From contig JAGBBW010000041.1 of assembly GCA_017938285.1 (NCBI GenBank), forward strand, positions 1 to 43,875: a stretch of 43,875 nucleotides of DNA, read 5' to 3'. Made by a program: the position numbers and the translations under genes. A model generated the notes under the pieces. That model had not been told where the DNA came from. It saw only the letters and a list, made by a program, of their open reading frames with translations, and made no database searches. How positions within the stretch are numbered: position 1 is the first letter of the stretch; each line of letters starts with the position of its first letter. The DNA comes from Lachnospiraceae bacterium. Lineage in GTDB: Bacteria > Bacillota > Clostridia > Lachnospirales > Lachnospiraceae. Shown one piece after another: positions 1,347-24,938 of the stretch.

Positions 1347-1778
1347 CTATTTCCAGTAATGTTCGCTTACCCCGGCTCCTACCGCCTGAAGGTTTATCGT
1401 AACCAGGTTAAAATTCCACATACCACCCAGATTGCACCTTCCGGTAATTGTCACATAAAACGGTGTGCCAATCTGGATTTTATTTACCCTTGCCGTACTG
1501 GTTACCTGGTAGTCCAGGTTCTGGACATTGCTTATCTGCCCGGTCAGGAAGTCAAACAAATCATCCGTATCTGAGTTCGTCCCACCATTCAGCTGGATCT
1601 GTTTTACCAGCTGGTCTGCAATATGGTCCATTTCCTGTTTTGCAGAAATAATATGGAACACATTGATAACAAACACAATCAGTATAACCGTTACCAGAAT
1701 ATAAACGTAACTGTTAATGTACGAGGTTTCACCTCTCTCTGAGCGAAACAGTTTCCCTATCTTCTTTTTAATAATCAT
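1347..1778 (-). CDS. DUF4320-type pilin-like ICE protein
   Basis: A 143-residue protein with a lysine-rich start, an ERGE motif at about residue 14, one membrane helix (about 20-42) and a beta-rich C-terminal domain. It resembles DUF4320 family proteins of clostridial conjugative elements. The ribosome site GGAGGTGAT (1785-1777) is very close to ATG 1778. A GTG at 1781 is also in frame but overlaps the site, so I prefer the ATG. That ATG shares its A with the stop codon of the leader ORF (TGATG), a classic translational-coupling arrangement. It is first in the short operon driven from about 1,857. Confidence 0.7.
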   Translation of the reverse strand: MIIKKKIGKLFRSERGETSYINSYVYILVTVILIVFVINVFHIISAKQEMDHIADQLVKQIQLNGGTNSDTDDLFDFLTGQISNVQNLDYQVTSTARVNKIQIGTPFYVTITGRCNLGGMWNFNLVTINLQAVGAGVSEHYWK

Positions 1779-1846
1779 CACCTCCAGAACACAAAAAACG
1801 CAGGCGAAGCTGGGAATCTGCTTTTTGCCTGCGTTTCTCTACTCAT
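1778..1846 (-). CDS. Leader peptide ORF of the short ICE operon (22 aa)
   Basis: An ATG at 1846 lies about 10 nt after the transcript start predicted from the TAAAAT box at 1869-1864 and has no Shine-Dalgarno before it, so it would be read from an almost leaderless mRNA. The 22-codon frame begins MSRETQAK, runs through the whole terminator hairpin and ends at TGA 1780-1778, overlapping the DUF4320 ATG by one base. The same arrangement recurs at 17,487-17,567. I infer that ribosome passage through the hairpin controls termination and couples translation to the downstream gene. It could still be a chance small ORF, but the parallel copy argues against that. Confidence 0.55.
   Translation of the reverse strand: MSRETQAKSRFPASPAFFVFWR
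1796..1836 (-). terminator. Leader terminator/attenuator of the short ICE operon
   Basis: A perfect 10-bp stem (AAACGCAGGC at 1796-1805 and GCCTGCGTTT at 1827-1836) is followed on the minus strand by a run of T. It lies between the promoter at 1,864-1,892 and the first gene, within the leader ORF. It therefore looks like an attenuator rather than the end of an upstream operon; no minus-strand gene ends here. Confidence 0.75.
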
Positions 1847-1929: not shown

Positions 1930-2051
1930 TACAGTCATTTCTAAAACCAATATCTTATATTTTTTTAATTGTTAATTCAAAATTTTCGTGAAACGTTACA
2001 GAATTTTTGTGCAAATCATGTTAAACTAATAGAAAATATATTTTCATAACT

Positions 2052-2064
2052 TATAATGTATAAT
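2052..2064 (+). promoter_or_regulatory. Candidate -10 boxes for the cargo operon
   Basis: Two TATAAT hexamers (2052-2057 and 2059-2064) lie about 50-60 bases before the first cargo start in a very A+T-rich stretch. No convincing -35 is present at the right distance, so either a regulator assists or only the A+T composition produces the match. The motif GAGGCATAAT occurs at 2071 and again at 2106, the second copy forming the ribosome site of the first gene. Confidence 0.35.
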
Positions 2065-2115
2065 TATTATGAGGCATAATTAGCAGCACAAAAATTACAA
2101 TTGAGGAGGCATAAT

Positions 2116-3069
2116 ATGTTTTCAGAAAAAACCATACTAATAACAGGCGGAACCGGAACAATAGGACAATATTTAGTTGAGAAAATCATTATGTCAGGAT
2201 GTAAAAAAGTAATAATATTTTCTCGTGATGAAGAAAAACAATATAATATGAAACAACAATTCTTAGATAAAAAAATACAATATATCATAGGTGATATTAG
2301 AGATTGTCAACGTTTAGATAATGTTTTAGTAGGTGTAGATTTTGTAATTCATACCGCCGCAATTAAGCAAGTACCAGTTGCTGAAAACAATCCTATGGAA
2401 GCGGTCTTAACTAATATTATAGGCACACATAATGTTATCACATCATCAATACGTCAAGGTGTCAAAAAAGTTGTATGTATGTCAACAGATAAAGCAGTAA
2501 ATCCAACTAACTGCATGGGAATGTCTAAAGGAATCAGCGAACGATTAGTAAAAGCAATTCATGATTCAAGTGGGGCAACAGAAATCGTTTGCGTCAGACT
2601 AGGAAATGTTTTAGGATCTAGAGGATCCGTTATTCCTCTTTGGAAAAAACAAATCGAAAAAATTAAAAAAATCACATTGACGGACCAAAATATGACAAGA
2701 TTTATAATGACCACTGAAGAGGTATATCAATTACTGGTACATGCTTTATCAAATGGAAAGAATAGCGAGACTATTTTTTTGAATATGAAAGCCTGTAGTA
2801 TATACGATTTAGCCAAAGTTATTTGTGAAAAATATGAATTAGACAAAAAAAATGATATACAAATTACTGGATTACGTCCTGGGGAAAAGTTGTTTGAAGA
2901 ACTGTATAGTGAAGAAGAAGCACCTTACATTTATGAAAATAACGGATATTATCACATTGGATTTAAACCATGCCAAAAAATACCTCACATAGAATGCAAG
3001 TCCAATACATGTAATTTGTTAACATTGACAGAAATCAAAAATATCCTTATGAAAAATCATTTACTATAA
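2116..3069 (+). CDS. CapE/PseB-like nucleotide-sugar 4,6-dehydratase/epimerase
   Basis: A 317-residue short-chain dehydrogenase/reductase, a complete length for the single-domain PseB/CapE group (PF02719). Start ATG 2116 follows GAGGAGG. The NAD(P)-binding motif TGGTGTIG lies at residues 9-16, a GDIRD motif follows, then STDKAVNP at 123-130 with the catalytic Asp-Lys pair. The Tyr of the usual YxxxK is Met (M134...K138), as in CapE-type enzymes that work on UDP-GlcNAc. The expected reaction is 4,6-dehydration with C5 epimerisation of a UDP-sugar, but no glycosyltransferase or other sugar-pathway gene is nearby. It is first in an operon with TPR-TM, PP2C and NUDIX genes, 18 nt before the next start. 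Its substrate in this setting is unknown. Confidence 0.85.
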   Translation: MFSEKTILITGGTGTIGQYLVEKIIMSGCKKVIIFSRDEEKQYNMKQQFLDKKIQYIIGDIRDCQRLDNVLVGVDFVIHTAAIKQVPVAENNPMEAVLTNIIGTHNVITSSIRQGVKKVVCMSTDKAVNPTNCMGMSKGISERLVKAIHDSSGATEIVCVRLGNVLGSRGSVIPLWKKQIEKIKKITLTDQNMTRFIMTTEEVYQLLVHALSNGKNSETIFLNMKACSIYDLAKVICEKYELDKKNDIQITGLRPGEKLFEELYSEEEAPYIYENNGYYHIGFKPCQKIPHIECKSNTCNLLTLTEIKNILMKNHLL

Positions 3070-3087
3070 GTATTGCAAAGGAGAAAA

Positions 3088-4176
3088 ATGAAAAATTTAC
3101 ACAATGAATTATCCAAATATAAAGACCCGCAAGATGCAGATTATACAATACATTTAAAAAAAATAATATTTAATGATAAATTTTCTAAAATTCCAGATGA
3201 TTATTTTGCTATAATTAATGATACTAAAAAAAACAAGCAAGTACGTTTTTCTGCTTTTTATTGCCTATTTACTGAATACCGACGTTTTGAACAACGTTAT
3301 CAACTCTTTACTTTAGTTGACAACTATATTACTATATTTAATGAAGAAATCTATGAATATTTACGTGATATAATTTGGTCGCAGTACTATAAATTTAAAT
3401 TTCTTGATACATTACGTAAAGACTTCTATTTAAAGGCTATTCGCTATGGAAAAAAAGCTATTAATGAATATAATACCAAATCAAATAATATCGGATGTTT
3501 TAATAACTTCGCAGATATTGTTCTTGATAGTTTGCTATTTAAAAATATTGTGAGTGATACCGATGTCTCTGACGCACTGCAATATGTGGAAAGAGCTATT
3601 TACATTCATGAGGAAGAACGTAATCGTGCACCTTATTCAAGATACTATTGTTCAAAAGCAAAGTTATTGGCATATCAAGAAAATTACGCAGAGGCGAGAG
3701 AAATGATTGCGTTAGCTATCTCATATGAAAGAACAGATGAAAAAGATTCACTTATTCGAATCTCAAGTTATCATAATACGCAATTAGAAATAAATACTGC
3801 TGAAACACTACAATTGGTTGATTCAAAAGTTACGGAATCCTACGAAAGATATGAAAAAATTCAAACCCAACTCGAACAACAGCAAATTAAGTATATTGAA
3901 ATTTTAGGATTTTTTGCTACAATAATCTCATTGATAATTGGAACAATTAGCATAACATTAAATATTGATACTTTTGGAATATCCAGTGGTTTAATTATTA
4001 TATTAACAGCTTGTCTGATAATATCTTATACTGTTTTAAATATTCTTTTTTCCTCACATATAGGGATATTCCGAATTATAATTACTTGTCTTTTCACTGG
4101 GTCACTTCTTTTGCTTGGCTATTTAATTGGAAATGGTTTTGACTTAAACTTATGGAATCATATGTTTTGTAAATAA
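3088..4176 (+). CDS. Helical-repeat (TPR-like) protein with coiled coil and C-terminal membrane helices
   Basis: A 362-residue protein of no family I recognise by name. ATG 3088 follows AAGGAG. Residues about 1-235 are alpha-helical and look like degenerate tetratricopeptide repeats, clearest in the Tyr/Ala-rich helices around 170-220. Residues about 240-270 are Glu/Gln-rich and likely coiled coil, running directly into three hydrophobic helices (about 272-291, 300-320 and 328-350) and a short tail. A sensor-like helical array joined to a membrane bundle is the layout of several membrane-acting effectors of bacterial conflict systems, but this is analogy only. The next gene starts 15 nt after its stop. 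Confidence 0.7.
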   Translation: MKNLHNELSKYKDPQDADYTIHLKKIIFNDKFSKIPDDYFAIINDTKKNKQVRFSAFYCLFTEYRRFEQRYQLFTLVDNYITIFNEEIYEYLRDIIWSQYYKFKFLDTLRKDFYLKAIRYGKKAINEYNTKSNNIGCFNNFADIVLDSLLFKNIVSDTDVSDALQYVERAIYIHEEERNRAPYSRYYCSKAKLLAYQENYAEAREMIALAISYERTDEKDSLIRISSYHNTQLEINTAETLQLVDSKVTESYERYEKIQTQLEQQQIKYIEILGFFATIISLIIGTISITLNIDTFGISSGLIIILTACLIISYTVLNILFSSHIGIFRIIITCLFTGSLLLLGYLIGNGFDLNLWNHMFCK

Positions 4177-4191
4177 TCAAGGAGGTATTGA

Positions 4192-5001
4192 ATGAAGATA
4201 CTGTTAGAATATTGTCAAGGATGTAAGAAACACATAAATCAAGATGCATATGGATATAAAGATAATTTTTTTTGGGTAATCGATGGTGCAACAGATGTTT
4301 TTGACAACCATTACCTGTCCCCTCTTGGTGATGTATACTGGATCGTTCAAAAATTAAATAATGCACTAAAAAAAGGAAATACAAAATCATCACTAAAGGA
4401 ATTTGTCAGTGCTGCAATTAGAGAAGTACAATTAGAAGCGTTAGCAAAAGTCCCAAATATTAATCAGATCGCAATTAATAAATTACCCACATATGCAATT
4501 TGTTGTGTAAAATATACCCAAGGATTTTTAGAATATTTATGTTTAGGCGATTGTTCTTTATTTATTAGCAAGTCCCCTACTACGCGATATACTGACACAC
4601 GCATTCAACCATTCCATCTACAAGTTAATGAAGTAAAGGAGCAATATAAAAACAATAGTGAACAATATAGGGCTCATGTATTAGAAATAGTTCGTGAGAT
4701 AAAAAATTTTATAAATATTGAAAATGGATATTGGATTGGAATCTTAGACCCTAATATCGTAGAGCATGCTATTATAGGAAACGTTGAAATTGAAGAAAAA
4801 GACCGATTTGTAATTTGTAGTGATGGATTTAGACCTAGCATAGATGAAGCTAATCTCATATATTTCGAATCCAAGGATATATTTATTAGAGCAAAACTTC
4901 AAACCATTTTAGAGCAACAGAATCTAGAAGAAAATAACTATTTATTAAAAACAGGAATTGATATTTCTGATGACAAAACGGTTTTATTAGTGGAAATCTG
5001 A
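4192..5001 (+). CDS. PP2C-family (PPM) serine/threonine phosphatase-like protein
   Basis: A 269-residue protein starting at ATG 4192 behind AAGGAGG. It carries PPM-family metal-site motifs in order: NQD (residues 16-18), IDGATD (30-35, with the metal-binding Asp-Gly), LGDCS in the middle, a CSDGF motif near residue 205 and SDDKT near the C-terminus. These support a Mn/Mg-dependent phosphatase fold with most metal ligands kept. No protein kinase is encoded beside it, so the substrate may be a host phosphoprotein or a small molecule. It is third in the cargo operon, between the membrane protein and the NUDIX gene. Confidence 0.82.
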   Translation: MKILLEYCQGCKKHINQDAYGYKDNFFWVIDGATDVFDNHYLSPLGDVYWIVQKLNNALKKGNTKSSLKEFVSAAIREVQLEALAKVPNINQIAINKLPTYAICCVKYTQGFLEYLCLGDCSLFISKSPTTRYTDTRIQPFHLQVNEVKEQYKNNSEQYRAHVLEIVREIKNFINIENGYWIGILDPNIVEHAIIGNVEIEEKDRFVICSDGFRPSIDEANLIYFESKDIFIRAKLQTILEQQNLEENNYLLKTGIDISDDKTVLLVEI

Positions 5002-5079
5002 GCCTGCAATTTAAAAGTTTTTTCTTTGAATTTACAAAATTAAATTGATTGCTTCAAAAAAAATTATAGCGAGGTGAAT

Positions 5080-5829
5080 TTGAGATTATATTCTCATAAT
5101 AATATGATAATAAAGTTAACGGGTAATATTATTTTTGAGCAAAAGCAGCCTTTCATCATCAAAAGAACCATAGAAGAAAAACTAGAAATTAATAATATAT
5201 GGGAGGAGTTTATCAAAGAGAAGATTCCTTCTGATTACTATAATGGCGATATCTTTTTAGTTACTAATATAAAAACAAATGAAGGCAATTATATTTTTGA
5301 AATTGGAAAAACAAAATTTTCTGATTTAATATACGCCAAACGAACTAACAAATTAAAAGTTCGTTCATTATTTATCGCTTCATATATCATGACTGCTGAT
5401 AACTATTTATGTATTATTAAAAACAAACATAAAAGGATTAATACTATAGGAGGAATGGTAGACTCTTTGGACTTTGACAACAATCTATTTATACCTCAAA
5501 ATTGTTTATATAGAGAATTCCAGGAAGAAATGGCAATGGATTTAAAACATGACGAAACATTTTATGACATCAATGCAAAGTATATTAAAATTCCTTATGG
5601 TGCAGAACACGAATTGGCTCTTTATCCAATCGGAATATTATATGAAATTAAAACAACGTTGACTACCACTGAATTACTAGAAAACTTCAAAAAAAACAAG
5701 GATTTCTCTGATGGTGAAATTGAAGAACTCGTTTTTTATAATAAAAATACCTATCAACAGATTGAGCAATACGAAGCCAAAGAAAGTTATATTTCAGAAT
5801 TACTTACTCATATAATAAATGACCAATAA
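5080..5829 (+). CDS. NUDIX-family hydrolase-like protein with N-terminal extension
   Basis: About 249 residues. The start is uncertain: TTG 5080 sits 5 nt after GAGG, GTG 5074 overlaps that site, and ATG 5104 has no good site, so I chose TTG. Residues about 1-90 match no domain I know. From about 95 the chain resembles a NUDIX fold, with a box beginning IGGMVDSLD (about 123) and, after a longer than usual insert, REFQEEM (about 146-152), the REUxEE core that binds Mg. Family members cleave nucleoside diphosphates linked to another moiety, such as nucleotide sugars, ADP-ribose or dinucleotides. With a nucleotide-sugar enzyme at the head of the operon, a sugar-nucleotide or signalling-nucleotide substrate is plausible but unproven. 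It starts 78 nt after the phosphatase. Confidence 0.72.
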   Translation: MRLYSHNNMIIKLTGNIIFEQKQPFIIKRTIEEKLEINNIWEEFIKEKIPSDYYNGDIFLVTNIKTNEGNYIFEIGKTKFSDLIYAKRTNKLKVRSLFIASYIMTADNYLCIIKNKHKRINTIGGMVDSLDFDNNLFIPQNCLYREFQEEMAMDLKHDETFYDINAKYIKIPYGAEHELALYPIGILYEIKTTLTTTELLENFKKNKDFSDGEIEELVFYNKNTYQQIEQYEAKESYISELLTHIINDQ

Positions 5830-6060
5830 GGAGTAATCAAACTTTTTGATGGTTTTCTTGAGATTCACTAAAGAAGAAATATCTACTTTTAAGGCATCAA
5901 ACATCTTGCTTATCTAAATACATGGTAACACCAACAAATGACGTCTATGTAGAAGTTAGGATACCCAAGTTGAAATGTCTACACCTATGGGTACAGTATA
6001 CCCGATTTAAATTATTGAAAACTCCTCATAATAACCCTCAAAAAATTTGATTATCCCAAA
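5830..6060. other. Gene-poor A+T-rich junction after the cargo operon
   Basis: This spacer holds no gene I can support. A 22-codon frame from ATG 5848 (MVFLRFTKEE...) may be a remnant but has weak signals. Copies of TACCC and its complement GGGTA between about 5,960 and 6,005 can form a small hairpin. The base composition matches the cargo rather than the ICE backbone, so the foreign segment probably extends to about 6,060. Confidence 0.4.
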
Positions 6061-6113
6061 TAAATGTAATGGCTGACAAGTCATTCTCAATTACTTGTCG
6101 GTCGCTACATTTA
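6061..6113. repeat. Imperfect inverted repeat at the cargo/ICE junction
   Basis: TAAATGTA (6061-6068) pairs with TACATTTA (6106-6113), and inside it TGACAAGT pairs with ACTTGTC. The result is an interrupted stem of about 16 bp with an 11-base loop. It overlaps the stop codon of the S1-domain gene. It could be the terminator of the transfer operon, although no strong T run follows, or a trace of the cargo insertion. Confidence 0.5.
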
Positions 6114-7082
6114 AATACGCTGTCTAATAATCCTCGAAATCAATCCAACTGCCACATTCCGTTCCTCATCAATCCTTGTCACTACAAAACTGACCTCATC
6201 CTTTTTACCCGGCATCCTGCTGTCATAGCAGCTGTGGGCCACGGCATTGACTCCAATATGAAGGCGCACAAATACGGTTCCCTTGTGGATATCAGTCACC
6301 ACGCCGGCATACTTGCCCTGGATCTTGCACTTTGAAAGGTTCTCCTTGCTAGTGTTTCCCTTCACACTCTTTACATCTGCCTTCACTGTGATGTCCTCTA
6401 TGGATTTGACAGATACACTAAGGATACGCACCAAAATCTGCTCGCCCACATGAAAGCTCTCTGTGGCATCACCCATCCAGTCCCAGGATAAGTCACGGGC
6501 CAGAATGGAACATTCCACACCGAAGATTTCCACCCTCACAACCTTTTCCGCAACAGCAATCACCCTTGCCTGAACGATACGGTCTTCACAGACACGGGCA
6601 TTTCCTGCTGCATCCGGCAGATAAAAAATCTGGCGTTTCTTGTGCATGGCATCCTTCCTGCTTGCAACTACGCTCCTGCTCTCATTGTCAATGCCTTTAA
6701 TAATAAAATCGATTTCACAGCCAAGCATGTTGCCAAGGATTTTGTTCTGGCGCTGTACCATTTCCCCGTAGTCATGCTCCTCGCTTTCCACCAGGTTAAT
6801 CATCATTTCTGCCAGAGGAATAACCACACGCATCTCTTTGTAGTAGATGACTGCAATCGTCCCGCCGCCTTCCATCTTTTCAATACCGCCCAGGTTTCCG
6901 GTTAAAATCTTTCTGGTACGGTACGCATTCTGCAGTTCATGCCAGATAATGTCCTCTTTTGTTTCCTGTGTCTCCACCTCTGCATCTGCAGTCAGTGTGA
7001 GAATCGAAGCAGGGACATTCTTTTTTTCCTCTGCGGTCACTTCTGTTTCATGTAATTCTTCTGTTTTCTTTTTTCTAGGCAT
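6111..7082 (-). CDS. S1 RNA-binding domain protein of the ICE
   Basis: A 323-residue protein starting at ATG 7082 behind AAAGGAG. The N-terminus is charged and low-complexity (residues 1-45). The rest contains repeated OB-fold-like segments with the S1 pattern of a Gly-rich beta start, a valine-rich middle and an acidic or lysine-rich end, clearest around 160-230 and 250-315. S1-domain proteins of this size occur in clostridial ICE transfer operons; their role is not established, with RNA or ssDNA binding or translational control as possibilities. It is the last gene of the long transfer operon, 14 nt after the coupling protein, and the cargo insertion lies just beyond it. Confidence 0.75.
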   Translation of the reverse strand: MPRKKKTEELHETEVTAEEKKNVPASILTLTADAEVETQETKEDIIWHELQNAYRTRKILTGNLGGIEKMEGGGTIAVIYYKEMRVVIPLAEMMINLVESEEHDYGEMVQRQNKILGNMLGCEIDFIIKGIDNESRSVVASRKDAMHKKRQIFYLPDAAGNARVCEDRIVQARVIAVAEKVVRVEIFGVECSILARDLSWDWMGDATESFHVGEQILVRILSVSVKSIEDITVKADVKSVKGNTSKENLSKCKIQGKYAGVVTDIHKGTVFVRLHIGVNAVAHSCYDSRMPGKKDEVSFVVTRIDEERNVAVGLISRIIRQRI

Positions 7083-20203: not shown

Positions 20204-20719
20204 TTAATTACACCTCCTTGCTGCAAATTCAAGATCCAGTTCACGGAATAAAGTCCCATTTTTCAATGCCTGCGGCAGAGAATAAAGATTACCATAGCAC
20301 TGCCATGGCACATAAGCCATGGCAACCGGCAACCCATTCAGTACCGTTTCCCGGTTGCATGCACTTCCACTCTGACCAATAATGATACCTCCAACCGATG
20401 TGTCATTTGCAGAACCTATTACGCCGCATGGATTACAGCAGTCATTAACCACTACCGGACCACATGGATTGCCACAGTCATTAACCACTGCCGGACCACA
20501 TGGATTGCCACAGTCATTTGCAACTGCCGGACCACAAGCACTGTTACTGCATGGACTGCCGCAGTTGTTTGTGCTTCCAATGATACCACCGGTTACTACA
20601 CATCCCGCCGCTGGTACTGCTGTACCACAGCCGGTTCCGACAGGCCTTCCGCCCGGGCGTCCGGCAAAACCAGCACCCACAGGAGTCACACAACGATTAT
20701 TTTGTCTATTTGGATTCAT
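20204..20719 (-). CDS. cotJA: CotJA-family spore coat protein with long Cys/Gly/Asn-rich N-terminus
   Basis: The C-terminal about 45 residues (LPVAMAYVPWQCYGNLYSLP, then a Glu/Leu helix) are the CotJA domain. The first about 120 residues are Gly/Cys/Asn/Pro-rich with near-identical repeats of NDCGNPCGPAVV, so the protein is 171 residues, about twice the length of Bacillus subtilis CotJA. The Cys-rich repeats may support cross-linking in the coat. ATG 20719 follows AGGAAGG by seven T residues; that ribosome site lies in the arm of a long hairpin. It leads the cotJA-cotJB-cotJC operon, expected under mother-cell sigma factor control. Confidence 0.88.
   Translation of the reverse strand: MNPNRQNNRCVTPVGAGFAGRPGGRPVGTGCGTAVPAAGCVVTGGIIGSTNNCGSPCSNSACGPAVANDCGNPCGPAVVNDCGNPCGPVVVNDCCNPCGVIGSANDTSVGGIIIGQSGSACNRETVLNGLPVAMAYVPWQCYGNLYSLPQALKNGTLFRELDLEFAARRCN
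20441..20536. repeat. 36-bp tandem repeats within cotJA
   Basis: Two full 36-bp units (20441-20476 and 20477-20512) differ at one position, followed by a diverged partial copy to about 20,536. They encode the 12-residue Cys/Asn/Pro repeat of CotJA. A period divisible by three keeps the frame, so copy number can vary between strains without breaking the gene. Confidence 0.85.
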
Positions 20720-23266: not shown

Positions 23267-24469
23267 TTACTTTTCCGTTTTCCCGGAGTCCAGAAATACT
23301 GCCCTCCTGACTGCCCCTGCTCCAAATTTTTCCCGGATGGCATCCATTGCTTTTTCTGCCTTTTCCTGCTTTTCATAATCTGTGGTGTCAAACAACGACA
23401 ACTGTCTTCCCTCTTCTTCTGTTACCCTGCTTACCGCAAAATTCAACAGTCTCACCGGTCTTCCATCCCAGAACTCCGAAAGCAGCCGGCGGGCATATTC
23501 AAACAATTCCCTAGTTCCCGCTGCCGGATTCTGCAGAACACACTGGTGGGAAGAGGAAATAAACCACGCATCTTTGATTCCTACGGATACCACTTCTGCT
23601 TTCTTTCCATCTGCCCGGAGTCTTCCGGATACCTGCTCCACCAATGCCAGCAGGATATCTTCTGCTTCCTCCCGTTCTGTTACATCATGCGCCAGGGTTG
23701 TTTCATTACTGTACCCTTTCGGCTCCTGATGTTTTCTGGCCGACAGACCATCATCCATTCCATTGGCAAATTTCCATATCGTATCCCCGGTGGATTTTAA
23801 ATGGCTGTGCAGTATCCCACGATCACTCTGTGCCAGTTCTCCGATGGTATGAATTCCAAGCGTATGAAGCCGGGAAGCTGTTGCCCTGCCGACAAAAAAT
23901 AGTTCTTCCACCGGAAGCGGCCACATTTTTTCCTTTATTTCTTCCGGAAACAAAGTATGTACCAGATCCGGCTTTTTGAAATCCCCTGCCATTTTCGCCA
24001 GCAGATGATTCGTGGAAATACCCACATTTACCGTAAACTTTAACTCCTCCCGGATACGGTTTTTAATCACATGGGCACACTCTACCGGAGGACCAAACAA
24101 CTGCTCCATTCCAGTCATATCCATAAATGCCTCATCTATACTGTACTGCTCCACCGTTGGAGAGTATTCTCTTAAAATCGACATAAATTTTGCAGAATAT
24201 TCCTCATAAATCCAATGTCTTGCCGGAACAATTACCAGCTCCGGACACTTCTGCAGGGCATGGGATATCGGCTCTCCTGTCGTAATCCCAAACTTTTTTG
24301 CCGGAGTGGATTTTGCCAGTACCACACCATGCCGCTTCGTTCTGTCACCACCTACAATGGACGGCACCAGCCGCAAATCTTCCGTCTCTCCTTCGGCATT
24401 CATCCGGTGCACTGCTTCCCAGCTTAAAAAAGCACTATTTACATCAATATGAAAAATTGTCTGTTTCAT
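23267..24469 (-). CDS. dinB: DNA polymerase IV (DinB), Y-family
   Basis: A 400-residue translesion polymerase. ATG 24469 gives the family-typical MKQTIFHIDVNSAF start, with AGGTG about 9 nt upstream; ATG 24490 (seven residues longer) is possible. Catalytic motifs are visible: the metal Asp in HIDVN (about residue 8), YSIDEAFMD (about 108), a helix-hairpin-helix region (LFFVGRATASRLHTLGIHTI) and the little-finger domain at the C-terminus. The C-terminal end carries LSLFD, similar to a beta-clamp binding motif. A LexA-like box overlaps its promoter, consistent with SOS control. Confidence 0.93.
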   Translation of the reverse strand: MKQTIFHIDVNSAFLSWEAVHRMNAEGETEDLRLVPSIVGGDRTKRHGVVLAKSTPAKKFGITTGEPISHALQKCPELVIVPARHWIYEEYSAKFMSILREYSPTVEQYSIDEAFMDMTGMEQLFGPPVECAHVIKNRIREELKFTVNVGISTNHLLAKMAGDFKKPDLVHTLFPEEIKEKMWPLPVEELFFVGRATASRLHTLGIHTIGELAQSDRGILHSHLKSTGDTIWKFANGMDDGLSARKHQEPKGYSNETTLAHDVTEREEAEDILLALVEQVSGRLRADGKKAEVVSVGIKDAWFISSSHQCVLQNPAAGTRELFEYARRLLSEFWDGRPVRLLNFAVSRVTEEEGRQLSLFDTTDYEKQEKAEKAMDAIREKFGAGAVRRAVFLDSGKTEK

Positions 24470-24508
24470 TCTGTTCTTCACCTGTTTCATACATCCTGTC
24501 CTAAGTGT

Positions 24509-24543
24509 ATCATACTTCCTTCCGCTGTGCAAACAAAAGTTCG
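24509..24543 (-). promoter_or_regulatory. dinB promoter with LexA/DinR-like box
   Basis: On the minus strand TTGTTT (24536-24531) and TATGAT (24514-24509) are 16 bp apart. The sequence CGAAC-TTTT-GTTTG (24543-24530) matches the Firmicute LexA consensus CGAAC-N4-GTTYG and covers the -35 box. A repressor bound there would block polymerase, so SOS regulation of dinB is expected. Confidence 0.75.
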
Positions 24544-24565
24544 TACATTTTTCCCAATTCTTAAG

Positions 24566-24595
24566 TTGACAAGATATCTGCCTGTCCTCTATAAT
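24566..24595 (+). promoter_or_regulatory. Promoter of the DUF1292 gene
   Basis: TTGACA (24566-24571) and TATAAT (24590-24595), both perfect, are separated by 18 bp. The promoter is divergent from that of dinB, and the DUF1292 start is 35 bases downstream. Confidence 0.85.
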
Positions 24596-24629
24596 GATTA
24601 TACGATAAAATAACAAATGGAGGCTAATT

Positions 24630-24938
24630 ATGGGCGACATGGATGAAATTTTTGATCAGGTAACTCTGACTTTAGATGATGACAGTGAATTAGTATGCGA
24701 TGTTATTGCCACATTCCCGGCAAAAGTAAATGGACAGGAGCAGATGTACATTGCCCTTCTCCCTGCCGATGCCACCCCGGAAAGCGAAATTTTTCTGTAC
24801 CGTTTCTTAGAAAACGGCGATGATATCGATTTGCAGAACATTGAAGATGACGAAGAATTTGATATCGTTTCCGATGCTTTCGACGAACTGCTTGACGAAG
24901 AAGAATTTGATGAAATCTTCGAAGACGGCGAAGAATAA
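24630..24938 (+). CDS. DUF1292 (YrzB-like) acidic protein
   Basis: A 102-residue very acidic protein. ATG 24630 follows GGAGG. The core VTLTLDDDSELVCDVIATF, a YIALLP segment and FLYRF match DUF1292, a small conserved Firmicute family often next to cell-division or RNA genes and of unknown function. The C-terminal 35 residues are nearly all Asp/Glu/Phe. It is single-cistron: a strong promoter precedes it and a hairpin terminator follows at 24,942. Confidence 0.9.
   Translation: MGDMDEIFDQVTLTLDDDSELVCDVIATFPAKVNGQEQMYIALLPADATPESEIFLYRFLENGDDIDLQNIEDDEEFDIVSDAFDELLDEEEFDEIFEDGEE

Follow-up and report, generated by a model that had tools for sequence, protein, structure and literature searches.

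In Thoeris, CBASS and Pycsar, exchangeable TIR and membrane-helix effectors are mounted on a common sensor or regulator. In the prophage defence module KKP (kinase-kinase-phosphatase), a PF13672 PP2C acts as an antitoxin that neutralises toxic kinases and is itself blocked by a phage protein (PMC11341870); in actinobacterial conflict systems PP2C genes lie beside kinase and vWA genes (PMC7159879), a different setting. Here we describe a four-gene cassette carried as cargo by a conjugative element of a Lachnospiraceae bacterium (GCA_017938285.1, contig JAGBBW010000041.1, positions 1–43,875; this whole 43,875-nucleotide stretch is termed the window). The cassette encodes an SDR-type sugar-nucleotide dehydratase, a TPR protein with a transmembrane part (TPR-TM protein), a PP2C phosphatase and a NUDIX-like protein. 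As in KKP, a compact cassette on a mobile element includes a PF13672 PP2C that may keep a toxic partner in check. KKP, however, holds two Ser/Thr kinases, whereas here the phosphatase is partnered by a TPR protein that ends in membrane segments or a TIR domain. The cassette resembles Thoeris, CBASS and Pycsar in its swappable TIR or membrane-helix effectors, whereas its conserved partner is a phosphatase; no cyclase, TIR, ThsA or ThsB match was found in the window cassette, which is not a Thoeris system. We propose that the cassette serves as a mobile immune module of the abortive-infection type, its TPR effector being gated by PP2C, a reading that we consider evenly poised between right and wrong, and we infer the defence role from the location of the cassette and from an effector swap among its relatives.

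The cassette consists of the following genes:
2116–3069, plus strand, SDR (ATG start; open reading frame (ORF) open from TTG 2101).
3088–4176, plus strand, TPR-TM protein, putative effector (ATG start; helical repeats, a long helix and three hydrophobic segments).
4192–5001, plus strand, PP2C_2 phosphatase (ATG start; PF13672).
5074–5829, plus strand, NUDIX-like hydrolase (GTG start; about 100 N-terminal residues ahead of the box).

The intergenic gaps measure 18, 15 and 72 nt in gene order. By eye, Shine-Dalgarno-like sequences (GAGGAGG, AAAGGAG and AGGAGG) precede the SDR, TPR-TM and PP2C genes, respectively, and the start of the NUDIX-like gene, its ribosome site likewise judged by eye, is less clear than the other three. 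GC content is 29.0% at 2101–5829 versus 44.2% across the remaining window. Rfam gave no match, and the number of promoter-like sites (37 versus 28.3, sd 5.5, in shuffles) was uninformative. No cassette protein substantially matched a PADLOC-DB 2.0.0 model: the TPR-TM protein matched none, and the SDR (E1-E2, 7e-6) and the NUDIX-like protein (PDC-S07, 1.4e-5, the 30 residues 141–170) did so over short stretches only.

The cassette is embedded among minus-strand conjugative-element genes for a DUF4320 protein, an S1-domain protein, a TraG/VirD4-type coupling protein and a TraG P-loop ATPase, and its insertion site can be followed into sister elements:
1347–1781, minus strand, left flank, DUF4320 element gene (PF14208, 3.8e-19).
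1930–6105, no strand assigned, cargo insert of about 4.18 kb (blastn against L102/L103 and junction alignments).
6111–7082, minus strand, right flank, S1-domain element gene (PF00575, 3.4e-12).
L102:8900–11062, plus strand, BnzB-like 720-aa membrane protein (P0001), lone cargo (PADLOC match).

Sister elements were sought with the right-flank S1-domain protein in eleven genomes, own included. Five matched, namely the own genome, G001 and G002 (same genus, 91% identity) and two at E of about 1e-4; viral contigs scanned with the same protein gave nothing. The window flanks are 74–77% identical to those of the G001 and G002 elements (L102 and L103), with breaks at window 1929/1930 and 6106/6111 (blastn). 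G002 shows an empty site, 12 bp (L103 10467–10478) standing in place of the insert, and in G001 a single gene for a 720-aa protein with five hydrophobic segments fills the same interval on the same strand as the cassette. Part of this protein matches PADLOC BnzB of the Bunzi system (BnzA/BnzB; 8.6e-44); its gene belongs to the sister element's version of the site and is not a component of the window cassette. Three states of one site (quartet, BnzB-like gene, empty) thus mark one cargo slot, which once holds a defence-type gene, in a sample of two sister elements from genomes 78% and 86% complete. These empty and BnzB-like states bear out the mobile cargo proposed in the sequence-only reading, and gaps, composition and strands agree with its picture of four plus-strand, A+T-rich, closely spaced ORFs set against minus-strand element genes.

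The part of the cassette that recurs is the TPR–PP2C pair. PP2C matches were found in 2/195, 8/398 and 7/291 genomes of three overlapping samples, own genome not counted, and larger regions around all 17 matches were searched with the window proteins. In five of these 17 genomes the gene immediately before PP2C encodes a TPR relative: G1208, G1080 and G1056 of genus g616 (Moorella; G1208 and G1080 are so called through the genus label that they share with G1056, Moorella mulderi), G686 and G522. In these three other lineages the two genes are separated by gaps, or joined by overlaps, of a few bases. Distribution is patchy: three of eleven listed g616 genomes carry the TPR-TM gene (profile search), a TPR-TM profile run over 121 g616 relatives gave six matches (three full-length, three short TPR-only), and PP2C is missing from all three listed genomes of the window's own genus. 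Among 195 relatives, the window TPR-TM query hit two: the window protein itself and one stretch at 8e-4, whose E-value weakened to 0.24 under tblastn. Distant homologues escape single-sequence and four-row profiles, and two genome-contig scans depended on exact short patterns. Recurrence of the gene set in conserved order, the check attached to the sequence-only reading, holds for the TPR/PP2C pair across three lineages and was not seen for the four genes together: in the genomes searched, the weak sequence test for the NUDIX-like gene recovered it only in the window, and an SDR precedes the pair only in the window and three g616 genomes, there as a different SDR subtype.

On plasmids, the window TPR-TM query had 0 matches, the g616 query four records (Natrinema 1, Leptolyngbya 3), the G686 query one (Leptolyngbya) and the G522 TPR query one (Microvirga); viral contigs yielded 0. 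Of these plasmid records the Natrinema locus was examined. The Natrinema relative matched the TPR alignment (hhalign 94.5%) and L096 (1e-8), scored 15.8 bits against the window protein, not above shuffles, and has no adjoining PP2C. This gene (L078:6734–7850) adjoins an integrase, and its membrane-part match runs on in another frame.

Comparison of the paired TPR proteins points to exchange of the effector end. Over full length, the window TPR-TM protein matched L063 (Moorella, g616) at 8e-20, L090 (G686) at 3e-18 and the TIR version L096 (G522) at 3e-11 by blastp, with 52–78 bits against a maximum of 28.5 bits over 200 shuffles. Pairwise BLAST of the TPR halves gave 1e-9, 3e-12 and 1e-11 from the window to L063, L090 and L096, respectively, and 5e-32 (L063–L096) and 9e-33 (L090–L096) among the relatives. 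Hydropathy indicates three C-terminal hydrophobic segments in the window, g616 and G686 proteins, and these parts are mutually similar (window–L063 3e-8, window–L090 3e-5; BLAST). The G522 protein is without hydrophobic segments and ends in a TIR domain (PF13676, 6e-16, 59.5 bits, cut-off 28):
L096:5247–7264, TPR-TIR and PP2C pair of G522, the sole TIR version found.
On these alignments the effector is exchanged, membrane segments for TIR in one case, with the phosphatase retained. The resemblance to membrane-acting effectors suggested earlier is strengthened by this swap and by the tie between TPR-TM protein and phosphatase in distant genomes; control of the membrane protein by a modified nucleotide or a phosphoprotein, suggested in the same reading, is conjectural.

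No Pfam model covers the window TPR-TM protein itself, DUF2207_C (5e-4) and TPR_12 (0.019) both falling under the cut-off, and its relatives pass the Pfam TPR cut-offs (PF07719, 29.5 bits, cut-off 27; PF13181, 26.0, cut-off 25.7). A structure model built from two input sequences reached a mean predicted local distance difference test (pLDDT) score of 65, with 77–95 across about residues 141–260; it predicts paired helices, a long helix at 221–290 and further helices at 296–320 and 326–348, the membrane part being modelled at low confidence. TPR proteins made up most of the top Foldseek rows for this model; the best row had E 1.4e-3 and none reached E<=0.001.

The PP2C is a clear family member (PF13672, 9.4e-7, 29.0 bits versus a gathering cut-off of 24). 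Its N-x-D, DG, GD, DG and DD motifs are all intact, and N16, D18, D31, G32, D120, D211, G212, D260 and D261 are invariant over 17 aligned PP2C rows, window included; we take D18, D31, D211 and D260 to be the metal-site aspartates. Matches to PDC-M21C (0.039, 0.0064) were set aside as too weak. Sequence searches found no PP2C match in phages or viral contigs. Plasmid records numbered 28 with the window query and 39 with the g616 query, and a PP2C-alignment scan of genome contigs returned 44 stretches with one relative, Moorella mulderi.

The SDR belongs with confidence to PF02719 (Polysacc_synt_2; 4.4e-95, 318.7 bits versus a cut-off of 20.2), and its closest PDB matches include 4j2o (5e-72) and 3vvb (CapE, 9e-68). 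It keeps the active-site stretch with S-T-D-K and M-x-x-x-K, of MxxxK type (STDKAVNPTNCMGMSK), and hydropathy shows no hydrophobic segment. With CapE, FnlA and PseB dehydratases it shares the SDR fold and the STDKAV..MG.SK stretch, but it scores below the NCBIfam equivalog cut-offs (PseB 283.5 versus 407.75 bits, FnlA 251.2 versus 730) and has no surrounding glycan operon. It is thus predicted to be soluble and UDP-GlcNAc 4,6-dehydratase-like. Homologues occur in 98/391 class genomes (E<=1e-60, own included, at most five candidates scored per genome); the closest by E-value is 46% identical, and the highest identity is 49% over part. At 29 non-window SDR loci, no TPR-TM, PP2C or NUDIX match was found within 1.5 kb on either side.

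The fourth protein is likely, though not securely, a NUDIX hydrolase. By eye it carries a NUDIX-like box (GGMVD...REFQEEMAM) that departs from the strict textbook pattern; no PF00293 match was obtained at E<=1, the mutT match was 0.073, a single-sequence model had pLDDT 31, and the PDB gave no sequence match at E<=10. A W..F....P..YNG stretch before the box, presumably a NUDT22 feature, recalls NUDT22-type UDP-sugar hydrolases by eye only. As query, the protein matched 4/397 genomes of the family, itself and three at E 0.0035–0.0084, two of which (L014, L015) show no NUDIX gene there by eye. It found nothing in genome contigs, plasmids, viral contigs or phages, nor beside the five other TPR/PP2C pairs; these searches are weak tests because the query also misses the Pfam-recognised NUDIX gene of L091, and a scan for the strict NUDIX motif recovers neither the L091 gene nor the one in the window. 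Among the family assignments of the sequence-only reading, the dehydratase stands at family level through PF02719, the predicted metal phosphatase through its Pfam score and conserved aspartates, and the TPR array through relatives above Pfam cut-offs and the predicted fold; the NUDIX call stands as to the visible box and the PDC-S07 match, and lacks a Pfam match and the strict pattern.

Away from the TPR gene, PP2C relatives keep varied company. Three genomes of different families place PP2C beside ABC-transporter-like genes:
L067:5209–9962, L068:5859–10553 and L069:4126–8688, PP2C with ORFs that by eye resemble the binding protein, permease and ATPase of ABC transporters.
Elsewhere PP2C lies beside a glycosyltransferase, recognised by Pfam in L092 and by eye in L093. 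In L091 the neighbours are a flippase-like ORF (seen by eye) and a divergent NUDIX gene (Pfam), in L094 a phosphohexomutase-like ORF and a protein with an NAGPA domain (Pfam), and in L016 a GntR gene (by eye). Ten plasmid neighbourhoods examined showed HTH/sigma-like, GntR or anmK-like genes, and at one plasmid locus (L082) an annotated TPR protein unrelated to the cassette TPR lies directly upstream of PP2C. In Sphingomonadales, a PP2C relative immediately precedes, and overlaps, an ORF that by eye resembles anhydro-N-acetylmuramic acid kinase (L009:5905–7898, L081:6001–7964); such anmK-like adjacency hints that some PP2C relatives serve in metabolism or in the cell wall.

Several observations weigh against an immune module. 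Given the varied neighbours, PP2C alone is uninformative on defence, and it is the TPR link that marks the core. No TPR relative was found at the ten plasmid PP2C loci (best E 0.29), and TPR-linked members do not form one clade in a PP2C tree with 7/14 inner branches open, four starred and very long rows for the window and L096. The pair is rare among the genomes searched, where the quartet was not found again; the g616 pair loci look polysaccharide-like by eye, and inspection by eye showed no known defence gene beside the pair in G686 or G522. Downstream of the G1056 PP2C, at a distance of about 0.5 kb, is an AAA_15 gene whose best PADLOC match is PD-T4-4_A (5e-45):
L065:4195–6182, AAA_15 ATPase and 174-aa neighbour, possible separate defence pair (PADLOC).
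Its support for defence is weak because AAA_15 matches many PADLOC models (119 here). At the sister site, the BnzB match covers the protein only partially, and no BnzA partner was seen by eye next to the gene. Finally, Pfam detected no kinase among the four cassette ORFs. Matches of pVip to a g616 radical-SAM gene were not used.

The lack of a kinase also bears on a KKP-like phosphorylation toxin–antitoxin, in which a host or distant kinase would be the partner and the TPR-TM protein the toxic target. The Pfam phosphatase family common to KKP PfpC and the cassette PP2C, together with the tight TPR-TM/PP2C coupling, speaks for such a unit, but the KKP order of a phosphatase followed by two Pkinase genes is absent, and we consider this reading quite improbable. 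A surface-glycan control unit is possible, though we think it unlikely: the SDR would supply capsule or glycoprotein glycans with a 4-keto-6-deoxy UDP-sugar, TPR-TM/PP2C would tune the pathway at the membrane, and as cargo the unit would change the host surface, for example by masking phage receptors. A 4,6-dehydratase-superfamily SDR does lie directly before the pair in the window and in all three pair-bearing g616 genomes, where an SDR of 637–644 aa (with N-terminal hydrophobic segments in the one examined) overlaps the TPR gene and aminotransferase, sugar-transferase or glycosyltransferase-like ORFs occur nearby by eye. Annotation assigns five of the six SDR neighbourhoods examined on plasmids, but not the sixth, to polysaccharide loci, and the glycosyltransferase, flippase-like and anmK-like neighbours of some PP2C relatives point the same way. 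Yet the cassette has no glycosyltransferase or transporter, the pair has no SDR match in G686 or G522, the SDRs of the window and g616 are of different subtypes, and it is not obvious what a TIR domain would do for a glycan.

Chance collection of four unrelated passenger genes at the cargo site would accommodate a NUDIX-like gene found only in the window and an SDR with ordinary homologues across the class. It seems improbable, as the TPR/PP2C adjacency recurs in three other lineages at few-base spacing and low GC and a single direction are common to all four genes. The cargo slot, patchy spread and effector swap are better fitted by a modular abortive-infection-type system than by metabolism.

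In that immune module, the core would pair PP2C with a TPR protein whose C-terminal effector can be exchanged, a three-helix membrane bundle in the window and TIR in a relative. The TPR array may keep the effector quiet, its state being set by PP2C activity through dephosphorylation of the TPR protein or of a host protein; infection would upset this balance, and the membrane bundle would open or assemble and growth would stop. The SDR and the NUDIX-like enzyme may be accessories acting on a UDP-sugar, for supply or clearance of a ligand or for cell-surface marking. The order of events, the PP2C substrate, a nucleotide-sugar signal and the SDR and NUDIX roles are all conjectural here. A full UDP-sugar-signal immunity is a long shot: the 4-keto-6-deoxy UDP-sugar made by the SDR would be sensed by the TPR array and removed by the NUDIX-like enzyme, with PP2C setting the threshold of a swappable membrane or TIR effector. 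In a weaker form, the pairs may represent a phosphatase-gated, effector-swapping TPR immune family without a kinase of its own. A literature search, mainly open access, turned up no description of PP2C in a pair with a TPR or TIR protein.

Elsewhere in the window, a 171-aa minus-strand ORF (20204–20719) has a C-terminal CotJA (spore coat) match at 1e-15, and a UmuC/ImpB-type Y-family DNA polymerase lies at 23267–24640 (IMS, 5e-40).

The slot in the conjugative element is a defence-type cargo site that can be mined for further systems. If the proposed gating is right, a phosphatase-coupled TPR switch would join the known controls of bacterial membrane and TIR effectors, and a small clonable cassette of two to four genes would offer a way to ask whether PP2C can keep watch over an immune effector when no kinase is dedicated to it; were the UDP-sugar reading true, it would represent second-messenger chemistry beyond cyclic nucleotides and ADP-ribose derivatives.

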